DNA of 43,027 nt from a virus: positions 1 to 43,027 of IMG/VR virus record IMGVR_UViG_3300049027_000043; one strand, 5' to 3'. This document shows positions 29,042-31,417 of this stretch, one piece after another; the first letter of the stretch is position 1, and each line of letters starts with the position of its first letter. Both the position numbers and the translations under genes were made by a program. Below the pieces are notes generated by a model. The model was not told where the DNA came from. It made no database searches and worked only from the letters and a program-made list of their open reading frames with translations.

Positions 29042-29239
29042 TCATTCTGCTGCCTCCCTGGCCTCAAAGAACGACTTCGGCTCGACCGCCCCGCCAGTAG
29101 CGCGGCAAATCTCTTCAATGACGCTCTTGCTCAGATTCTCACCGCGCATATACCGGTGCACTTGTGCCCGGCTTTTGCCCAGCAATGCCGCAAAAGCTGT
29201 TACAGTCGTGTGCTCGTGGATGTAATCTTCAAGGGTCAT
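29042..29239 (-). CDS. Cro-like HTH protein, first gene of the leftward operon
   Basis: 65 residues from ATG 29239. MTLEDYIHEHTTVTAFAALLGKSRAQVHRYMRG is a helix-turn-helix of the Cro/YdaS kind, followed by SKSVIEEICRATGGAVEP, the usual next helices. It starts right at an inverted repeat and opposite the repressor gene, the classical Cro position. The predicted transcription start falls on or next to the ATG, so its message may be leaderless. A longer form from 29275 is less likely. Confidence 0.78.
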   Translation of the reverse strand: MTLEDYIHEHTTVTAFAALLGKSRAQVHRYMRGENLSKSVIEEICRATGGAVEPKSFFEAREAAE

Positions 29240-29257
29240 GTAGCAATTACTGCTACA
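29239..29257. promoter_or_regulatory. Operator: perfect inverted repeat TGTAGCA-N5-TGCTACA
   Basis: A perfect 7-5-7 inverted repeat overlapping the start codon and -10 region of the Cro-like gene. The half site TGCTACA recurs at 31335-31341 and 31377-31383, and its variant TGTTACA at 29282-29288 (as TGTAACA) and 31409-31415. Probable binding site of the CI-type repressor or of Cro. Confidence 0.65.
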
Positions 29258-29275: not shown

Positions 29276-29289
29276 CAGCAGTGTAACAT
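29261..29289 (+). promoter_or_regulatory. Candidate repressor promoter
   Basis: TTGCGC (29261-29266), 17 bases, TAACAT (29284-29289). It overlaps the leftward promoter on the other strand and would start about 30 bases before the repressor ATG at 29328, allowing mutual exclusion of the two transcripts. Confidence 0.45.
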
Positions 29290-29327
29290 TTTATGGCATA
29301 GAAGATGCCGCGAATCTGGCGGATAAG

Positions 29328-30089
29328 ATGCCAATGACAAAGAATTGGCTCGATCCTTTCCTCAAAGCCTCAAAATTCGCCTCTCAAGAGGAACTCGCCG
29401 AAGCCCTCGGCGTCTCGCGCGCGACCATCAACCGCCTGGCTAACGATCACACGCAGCTAAAGCGTGATCGGGCCAAGGTGCTGGCGGAACTGCTGGGGAC
29501 ATCTGTTGAAGCGCTATTGCTGAACCGGCCGCCCCGAAGTTCTTTGGTCTCGAGTTTTGACCCGGACACGGAAGAGGGGTCTCACGAGGAAGGCGACCGA
29601 GGCGGCTACACGCGTGAGCACTGGCGAGCGCACATCGATGGGGCGGTTCCAGAGCTCGATGTGAAGCTAGGGGCTGGTGAGGGGGTCGTAGGAGACGTCA
29701 TCAACATCCCCGTAGGCCACGAGAGCACATCGGGCCATCGCGTTGTCGCGGAATGGCTTATACCCTCAGACTACTTGCGCAGCGAAGCGAAGGTTTCGGT
29801 TAATCACACGGTCGTCATGGAGATTGTTGGCGAATCAATGCAGCCAGACTTCCTCCCCGGTGACCGTGTGATTGTCGACTTGTCGCAGACACAATGCCTG
29901 CACGATGGGATCTACGCCTTCAGCGACGGCATATCGCCCCCTCAGGTGAAGCGGTTTCAGAGAATCCCCTTCACCAATCCGCCAGAAGTTAGAATAATGT
30001 CCATAAATCCTGGCTACCCGTCGTTCCAAGTTGAGCTTCATCGCGTCAACATTATCGGTCGGGTCTGCGGCCACGTTACCCGCAAGTAG
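29328..30089 (+). CDS. CI-type phage repressor with S24 peptidase domain
   Basis: 253 residues. SQEELAEALGVSRATINRLAND (19-40) is the helix-turn-helix. The C-terminal domain has VGESMQPDFLPGDRVIVD with the nucleophile Ser170, and PQVKRFQR with the partner Lys208, both intact, so RecA-stimulated self-cleavage is plausible. The linker around GAGEGVVGDV has no unambiguous Ala-Gly or Cys-Gly cleavage site apart from GAGEG. It lies opposite the Cro-like gene across shared operators and maintains lysogeny. Confidence 0.88.
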   Translation: MPMTKNWLDPFLKASKFASQEELAEALGVSRATINRLANDHTQLKRDRAKVLAELLGTSVEALLLNRPPRSSLVSSFDPDTEEGSHEEGDRGGYTREHWRAHIDGAVPELDVKLGAGEGVVGDVINIPVGHESTSGHRVVAEWLIPSDYLRSEAKVSVNHTVVMEIVGESMQPDFLPGDRVIVDLSQTQCLHDGIYAFSDGISPPQVKRFQRIPFTNPPEVRIMSINPGYPSFQVELHRVNIIGRVCGHVTRK

Positions 30090-30092
30090 CGT

Positions 30093-30452
30093 CTAGGCCG
30101 CTCCTCGCAAAAACCGTTCGTCACGCGTCCGGATATCGGCCACAACAATCGCCGTCACCAGCTCTTCAAACTTGTCGAGGGGGAGGTGGTACTTCTCGTC
30201 TCGCCTGTTTTCTTGGAACAGCACGAGGCCGCCCTTTCCGTCCATGTTGTTCATCACACGGAATAAATCGAGCCCGGCACCCGCGTGCACTAAATAGATG
30301 CCCTCCCCTGTGTACTGGCTCACCGGCGCCAACAGAGCGTAATCTCTGCCACCGCGAAGTGTCGGCTCCATGGCGTCTCCTTTAACCGCGTGCACGCGGA
30401 AACGGCCAGAAAGTACATTCTCAGGCGGAATATCCGGAATAAGATCATGCAT
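30093..30452 (-). CDS. S24-fold protein without catalytic residues
   Basis: 119 residues from ATG 30452 (GAGGG upstream); ATG 30488 would add 12 residues. There is no helix-turn-helix. FRVHAVKGDAMEPTLRGGRDYALL matches the LexA/CI peptidase motif GDSMEPTL with Ala in place of the nucleophile Ser, and the segment that normally carries the Lys reads LDLFRVMNN. It is convergent with the repressor gene, with three bases between stops. It may pair with the repressor and change its activity; that is inference. Confidence 0.75.
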   Translation of the reverse strand: MHDLIPDIPPENVLSGRFRVHAVKGDAMEPTLRGGRDYALLAPVSQYTGEGIYLVHAGAGLDLFRVMNNMDGKGGLVLFQENRRDEKYHLPLDKFEELVTAIVVADIRTRDERFLRGAA

Positions 30453-30488
30453 CATGCCCTCGTTGATCGTTATCAACACCCCCAGCAT

Positions 30489-31298
30489 CAGAGTGCGCGG
30501 GCACGTTAGCGCGCGATTTATGGTCGGCGATACTCCGTTTTAGCTATGGCTGAATATTGTGGATTGTCACAATTCCGCGTTTTCTTGTCATCAACCGCAC
30601 CTCGGCAAATGCCGGACGCCTCGACTCATGACAGTTTTGCGACAGTCCACAGAAAAGAACCCCTGCCAATCTAGGGAGGCCGATCGGTTTTCGTGGTGAT
30701 GTTGCTGATTTCGCACGGTGAGAAAAGCCGGAAGCGGGGCGGTCACATTTTACGACGGCGTGTCAAGTTCCGTGACGTTGGGCATAACCTAGGCATTAGG
30801 ATGGTCTCTAACACAGAGACATCCAACCCTGCGCCGGTCTCGCCGACACCTAGCATCCGTGGAACCAACCTCTCCTGAAGCTCGGTTTGATATCCCAGCC
30901 GCTCACTGGGTCTAACACCGGGGGAAGTCTTTTTCTCGAGCTGGTCAGGCTCATTTATCCCCGATACGTGCATCGCCCCTTTTCTTCGGGGAGACGGTAT
31001 AAGCTGCTTCAGTTTTCCCGGAGCGTTGCAAACGCTTTTCCCCGGCAGGCCATCAACCCTGTGGTTCCGTTCGGTGAGCCTGGCACCGACACCGCGAGGG
31101 ATTTGATTTGCCGGATCGATCGGCGGCGCGGGAACAACCCCGGAAAAGACCGCTGCCATTGCGCCTCCGAACACATCATCTTGGCGGGAACCTCCGAGCA
31201 GACCCAAGATTTTGTGCTTTTCAGCACCTGACAGCGACCAAACCGATTGCGTTTATAGAGCAGTTCTGCTAAACAATCGGCAGCACTTGGAAGCCATC
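30489..31298. other. Long stretch without a convincing gene
   Basis: About 800 bp between the S24-fold gene and the terminator at 31299. Open frames on both strands exist (for example minus 30743-31207 and plus 30887-31231) but have mixed codon use, weak starts and no recognised family. The 5' end of the minus frame (SGAEKHKILGLLGG, FGGAMAAVFSGVV) reads more protein-like than the rest, so a decayed gene is possible. The stretch could hold untranslated leader, an antisense RNA or an origin. Confidence 0.5.
30556..30573. promoter_or_regulatory. Inverted repeat ATTGTG-N6-CACAAT
   Basis: A perfect 6-6-6 inverted repeat about 100 bp upstream of the S24-fold gene. It contains TGTGGATTG, close to a DnaA box (TGTGGATAA on this strand). 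AGTCCACA at 30644-30651 is another partial match. Operator or origin element; neither is established. Confidence 0.4.
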
Positions 31299-31335
31299 AG
31301 CCCCGGTCGGATCGTCCCGCCGGGGCTTTTCTTTT
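31299..31335 (+). terminator. Intrinsic terminator, plus strand
   Basis: AGCCCCGG (31299-31306) and CCGGGGCT (31320-31327) form a perfect eight-pair stem followed by TTTCTTTT. It ends plus-strand transcription just before the rightward early promoter, most simply that coming from the repressor gene at 29328. Confidence 0.8.
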
Positions 31336-31376
31336 GCTACATCCCAGCCCCCATGTCAAATCTTTGCATCATTTTT

Positions 31377-31417
31377 TGCTACACACTGGTTGACAGTGTC
31401 GCATAAACTGTTACATT
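31377..31417 (+). promoter_or_regulatory. PR-like early rightward promoter and operator
   Basis: TTGACA (31390-31395), 16 bases, TACATT (31412-31417). The -35 is covered by a perfect inverted repeat ACACTG-N5-CAGTGT (31383-31399). TGCTACA at 31377 and TGTTACA at 31409 flank it. Start near 31424, 28 bases before the first ATG of the rightward operon. Repressor control is inferred from the shared sites at 29239-29288. Confidence 0.7.

Follow-up and report, generated by a model that had tools for sequence, protein, structure and literature searches.

A small gene at positions 30093 to 30452 (minus strand) of the window, by which we mean the whole stretch of 43,027 nucleotides of DNA from an IMG/VR virus record analysed here, encodes a stand-alone S24-fold protein of 119 amino acids (supported by the open reading frame, structure and homologues). 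As judged from its predicted structure, this protein is a truncated, catalytically dead relative of the C-terminal half of the very repressor that is encoded beside it. We propose, with a probability of about 0.45 and by analogy with the phage P22 antirepressor Ant, that the dead S24 protein binds the S24 domain of the repressor as an inactive partner and tunes the phage switch.

The protein begins MHDLIPDIPPENVLSGRFRVHAVKGDAMEPTLRGGRDYALLAPVSQYTGEGIYLVHAGAGLDLFRVMNN and ends VVADIRTRDERFLRGAA. Translation was assigned to the ATG at 30452, which is preceded by a Shine-Dalgarno sequence, GAGGG (30457 to 30461, minus strand), and is the aligned start in nearly all homologues; it agrees exactly with the coordinate given in the first-pass annotation. 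A longer reading frame starting at 30488 was rejected, as its upstream stretch aligns as a leader and the Shine-Dalgarno sequence and ATG at 30452 are conserved; the stretch from 30488 to 30452 is probably an untranslated leader. A chance open reading frame is ruled out because there are dozens of homologues, dN/dS is low and synteny is conserved. The start at 30452 leaves approximately 16 residues ahead of the first S24 strand, and neither Pfam nor PHROG profile searches gave a helix–turn–helix (HTH) match to the 119-residue protein, which bears out the claim of the first-pass annotation that there is no DNA-binding domain. Residue 27, where the nucleophilic serine is expected, is alanine (GDAMEP), and residue 64, where the catalytic lysine is expected, is phenylalanine (LDLFRV). 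The protein has neither the DNA-binding domain fused to S24 of a CI or LexA repressor nor the Ser-Lys dyad of an active S24 peptidase, and it differs from a UmuD-like protein in that the dyad is absent and its neighbour is a repressor rather than a translesion polymerase gene.

A Pfam search with the window protein alone did not recognise it, no PDB entry matched it by sequence, and Pfam, NCBIfam and PHROGs offered no named family beyond weak matches. Among 26 family members, 12 matched PF00717 weakly (best E 0.019) and 25 matched PHROG 6201 (best E 1.2e-5; window protein, E 0.02). This S24-only profile, named 'CI-like repressor', is the nearest in the phage library, albeit a weak match, and the repressor role that the name implies is unlikely because the protein has no DNA-binding domain. 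An AlphaFold model with homologues only in the alignment (pLDDT 67) had LexA as its top PDB match (E 0.03). When distant homologues and repressor C-domains were added, the model reached pLDDT 82 and pTM 0.75 and best matched LexA C-domains (E 6e-4, TM 0.62/0.72), then UmuD' and the lambda CI C-domain; this second model depends in part on the repressor sequences in its alignment, without which the first was built. With the LexA C-domain as the best structural match of both predicted models, the S24 fold claimed earlier is upheld, and the protein is predicted to share the S24/LexA-CI C-domain fold. D26, M28 and P30 of the G-D-x-M-x-P motif are nearly invariant in the aligned homologues.

The survey of catalytic loss covered 52 aligned rows, made up of the window protein and 51 distinct homologues. 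The catalytic lysine position is F in 30 rows and Y in 19, otherwise I, L or R; Lys occurs there in no aligned homologue. At the nucleophile position there is A in 29 of the 52 rows and T, G, E, V, R or H in others, with Ser in two of the 51 homologues (L115 and L061/L079); a further case, L163, lies outside this alignment. The invariant loss in the family is that of lysine, and alanine at the nucleophile position is not fixed. The proposal that both catalytic residues are replaced therefore stands as a family trait so far as lysine is concerned, but not for the particular alanine, which is one of seven residues found there besides the rare serine. Homologues with serine had been named as the finding that would reduce the alanine to a sequencing or local change. 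Such copies exist, but they count in a trivial sense only, being still without lysine, and the worry about a local change is answered by the conservation of the layout across many phages.

IMG/VR yielded 46 loci with related genes, which also occur in many genomes of Rhizobiaceae; a homologue is carried by 12 of the 33 species of the genus Sinorhizobium, and the genome of Sinorhizobium glycinis has the dead S24 gene and repressor layout (L052). With the protein as query 48 loci were recovered, one of which ends before the repressor; S24-only proteins beside S24 repressors, which the first-pass annotation had considered worth seeking, thus recur in 47 of 47 loci with enough flanking DNA, always convergent with an S24 repressor that has both Ser and Lys. 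The distance between the stop codons in this main clade mostly ranges from an 11 bp overlap to a 34 bp gap, and is 420–430 bp in six loci (e.g. the extra DNA at L008:4376-4805 and L019:4361-4780). In L008 the insert, which lies downstream of cI, seems to encode a small protein with the look of a secreted one and may be a lysogenic conversion gene. A search from the repressor side found the companion gene always in the same place, in 25 of 38 loci of type I and 25 of the 27 of type II when intact and decayed copies are counted together, although these loci overlap the protein-side set and include near-identical records, so that the counts are not independent. Roughly one in three of the type I repressor loci (12–13/38) has no companion, as do 2/27 of type II, and in companion-less loci other genes, some of them secreted-looking, often take the slot. 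It is strongly linked to the repressor, yet dispensable for it. One repressor reading frame, L017:4394-4798, is only 134 amino acids long and has no in-frame HTH, possibly through a frameshift or a cut at the contig end.

In the window, the CI-type repressor gene occupies 29328 to 30089 (plus strand) and encodes an HTH and an S24 C-domain (PF00717 5.5e-12; HTH_3 4.9e-10; PHROG 4, 'transcriptional repressor'). Its GESM and VKR motifs keep Ser and Lys intact, and a possible Ala-Gly cleavage site lies within the sequence KLGAGEG. The dead S24 gene is convergent with it, the stop codons being 3 bp apart; the first description of the neighbouring repressor, as convergent and keeping Ser and Lys, is borne out. 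No clear terminator was found between these two genes in the window. Divergent from the repressor gene is a Cro-like small HTH gene at 29042 to 29239 (minus strand; PHROG 35, 'transcriptional repressor', 1.3e-8; HTH_26, 1.3e-4), the matches being scored for the open reading frame to 29275 and the start at 29239 being our assignment. Putative repressor operators were called from motif and palindrome matches. Two fall in the cro/cI control region, TGTAGCA-N5-TGCTACA at 29239 to 29257 (0 mismatches) and a weaker one at 29282 to 29300 (2 mismatches), and two more (31365 to 31383 and 31397 to 31415) overlie the rightward early operon's promoter, which has TTGACA at 31390. The motif TGTnRCA-N5-TGYnACA has nine matches in the window against a mean of 2.5 in shuffles. 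None of the putative operators found by the window motif scan lies at the promoter of the dead S24 gene, and direct control of this gene by the repressor in the window was rejected on that ground. We note that a block of about 500 bp without convincing genes, within 30750 to 31335, recurs in part in several related phages and ends in a terminator-like hairpin near 31314 to 31334 (plus strand); the only known RNA matched in this non-coding block was Rfam sX11 (E 0.09, far below the gathering score).

Two kinds of candidate control element adjoin the dead S24 gene in different loci. An Arc-like ribbon–helix–helix gene lies divergent beside the companion in L016, L041-L048 and L142-L144 (PF03869, with E between 2e-9 and 9e-11 for the four that were tested), and L161 has three Arc-like stretches upstream. 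The window has no Arc-like gene near its dead S24 gene. It has an operator-like element, TTGTGACAATCCACAA (30557 to 30572, minus strand), 105–120 bp upstream of the start codon, an inverted second copy, TTGCGACAGTCCACAG (30637 to 30652, plus strand), 80 bp from the first, and a conserved GCTAACGTGCC (30500 to 30510, minus strand), approximately 50 bp upstream of the start codon, which from the alignment may be the -10 region of a promoter. One or two inverted copies of TTGYGACARTCCACAR are mostly present in the same upstream region of Arc-less loci, and the element was found in 0/9 of the Arc-bearing loci tested. On the strength of these upstream sequences, the Arc-like gene and the TTGYGACARTCCACAR pair look like two alternative ways of controlling one and the same gene. 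The spacing of paired copies is 79–80 or 69–70 bp between loci, a difference of about one helical turn, which suggests a helical-phase constraint such as DNA looping; in many loci a second TGTCA box lies about 11 bp from each TTGYGACARTCCACAR copy. Control by LexA was rejected, as no LexA box (GTTC-N7-GTTC) occurred within 330 bp upstream in any homologue checked.

Remote homologues were sought in roughly 400 genomes from the family, as many again from the order and 33 from the genus; neighbouring genes that had no Pfam call were read by eye. A remote homologue often has no S24 repressor within about 5 kb. Several are found beside antirepressor genes, namely an overlapping AntA gene (L080), AntA with KilAC (L082), KilA-N (L077) and Rha with KilAC (L084), and it is only these neighbours that match Ant, AntA, KilA-N or Rha Pfam domains, which are absent from the dead S24 protein and its relatives. 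L078 and L079 are convergent with S24 repressors 0.7–0.8 kb away, L170 belongs to what looks like an early operon, with an Arc-like gene nearby, L171-L175 are near small HTH genes (translations read by eye) and L176 and L177 have no evident partner gene. The dead S24 gene thus often occupies an antirepressor slot, as indicated by Arc-type control, antirepressor neighbours and its place in the immunity locus. Contig C14 of genome G347 carries two different dead S24-only genes (L079 and L080) about 33 kb apart, one convergent with an S24 repressor and the other overlapping the AntA antirepressor gene. At L077, the KilA-N gene and the dead S24-only gene are within 3 kb of a gene for a repressor-like HTH protein (L077:9143-9982), in whose S24 region GNAN and VRR replace the Ser and Lys motifs; from these motifs the protein looks uncleavable.

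Over the 131 pairs for which dS was usable, the dead S24 family had a median dN/dS of 0.11, compared with 0.033 for the C-domain of the repressor, values that are approximate given the NG86 method and the shared ancestry of pairs. A neutral relic is excluded for the family as a whole. Between type I and type II loci, companions are 50–61% identical and repressor C-domains about 30%; a finely co-evolved contact is unlikely because the companion is more conserved across locus types than the repressor C-domains. The repressors bear several unlike DNA-binding domains, one of which (TKNWLDPFLKASK...) is paired with both C-domain types. Companion distances correlated with repressor distances at a Mantel r of 0.63 for the C-domain and 0.40 for the N-domain (partial 0.58 versus 0.29), although the C-domain end of cI is physically nearest the companion and linkage alone could yield part of this correlation.

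S24 domains dimerise, as is established for LexA, CI and UmuD, and pairing with the S24 domain of the repressor is for this reason the simplest molecular route by which the protein could act. The dead S24 domain would pair with that of the neighbouring CI-type repressor via the S24 dimer surface, and this pairing would alter the amount of active repressor and the ease of its RecA-triggered self-cleavage. The outcome would be a tuning of the lysis/lysogeny switch, for which inhibition and protection are both possible, as with P22 Ant. Binding to the repressor is favoured by the convergent layout of all 47 loci, the tracking of the repressor C-domain, the low dN/dS, the LexA/CI fold, the Arc-like gene and the antirepressor neighbours, and is weakened by the type I and type II loci that have no companion and by the loss of Ser and Lys from the only repressor-like protein near the gene in L077. 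The idea of mixed dimers is complicated by the higher identity of companions than of C-domains between locus types, by the remote homologues without an S24 repressor and by the operator-free promoter. The antirepressor role suggested in the first-pass annotation has thus gained independent support from the Arc-type and AntA/KilA-N/Rha neighbours, but it fits less well with a promoter at which the putative repressor operator is absent; expression in the lysogen is then possible, and a strong antirepressor would be harmful there. A wider version of this proposal, tentative and at rather less than even odds, is that a phage protein family built from the self-cleavage domain of a repressor, without DNA binding or catalysis, controls repressors by direct mixed pairing, as a dominant-negative or cleavage-blocking subunit that sits in an immI-type antirepressor slot and moves between phages with unlike repressors.

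The closest parallel is the immI region of P22, in which Arc and Mnt control ant. Ant binds the C2 repressor; on overexpression it inhibits C2, and it also shields C2 from cleavage that depends on RecA (PMC11016777). The likeness lies in a small regulatory gene whose product acts on the main repressor (demonstrated for Ant, and what we infer here), in the divergent Arc-family repressor gene that adjoins the dead S24 gene of one subgroup and in the AntA, KilA-N or Rha antirepressor genes that adjoin some remote homologues. Unlike Ant, the dead S24 protein has the repressor's own fold and not an Ant/KilA-N/Rha domain, and the main-clade gene is directly beside the main repressor and not in a distant second immunity region. 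UmuD keeps its Ser-Lys dyad and acts with a polymerase. UmuD' and HumD resemble the dead S24 protein as S24 domains without a DNA-binding domain, and UmuD' is among the structure matches; the dead S24 family differs in never having the lysine and in its repressor neighbour. As the first-pass annotation had supposed, family libraries and the openly accessible papers searched yielded no named system of this kind of layout, and S24-only or inactive repressor companions were likewise not described in those papers. The collection of phage genomes searched had no clear homologue (cultured phages and plasmids gave only weak matches, E 0.05 or worse), which places the gene outside the set that has been studied. 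The classic connection of DNA damage with prophage induction runs through self-cleaving S24 repressors. A widespread dead S24 copy beside the intact repressor would offer a natural way of testing how the mixing of subunits sets the stability of the switch. Many prophages of nitrogen-fixing soil bacteria carry such a gene beside the repressor that keeps them dormant, and the family would be a new class of protein among the antirepressors.

An alternative, unlikely in our view but the best of those considered, is that the protein is a RecA decoy that protects lysogeny, the dead domain occupying the RecA filament or forming uncuttable mixed dimers and slowing cleavage. RecA acts as co-protease on S24 C-domains and is itself conserved from host to host, which would account for the association with unlike repressors, and a promoter with neither a putative repressor operator nor a GTTC-N7-GTTC box fits expression in the lysogen. 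The precedent is Hex of phage 434, a small immunity-region protein that protects its repressor from RecA-stimulated cleavage (PMC3564112). Hex is likewise encoded beside the repressor, although its gene overlaps the repressor gene on the same mRNA. However, Arc-type control and antirepressor neighbours suggest regulated rather than steady expression, and L077 keeps its dead S24 gene though the nearby repressor looks unable to self-cleave.

More doubtful still is that the protein acts on a different S24 target, for instance LexA of the host, a UmuD-like protein or a competing prophage's repressor, with adjacency to cI a matter of historical linkage. The remote homologues without a nearby S24 repressor and the conservation of the companion beside unlike C-domains would fit, and the Gifsy antirepressors act in trans on the repressors of other prophages (PMC3121763). 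The Gifsy antirepressors GfoA and GftA, which bind and inactivate repressors, are also small prophage proteins; unlike the dead S24 gene they are LexA-controlled and lie outside the immunity region. This reading has difficulty with the tight convergent linkage, which holds throughout the main clade and for two types of repressor. It is improbable that the gene acts through its transcript, with convergent transcription or antisense RNA lowering cI expression: in most loci the genes meet at their 3' ends or overlap there by up to 11 bp, and the window has no clear terminator between them, but the dN/dS indicates selection on the protein, six loci separate the genes by more than 400 bp and convergence with cI is missing in several remote homologues. 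A functionless, decaying leftover of a repressor C-domain is scarcely credible beside dozens of intact copies that have a low dN/dS and share their start site and upstream elements, even though some copies are broken, by one inserted G in L004, L005, L011 and L051 and by other damage in L049, L053 and L065. In the first four, which are closely related prophages, the same inserted G breaks the frame after the first strand and the repressor is intact.
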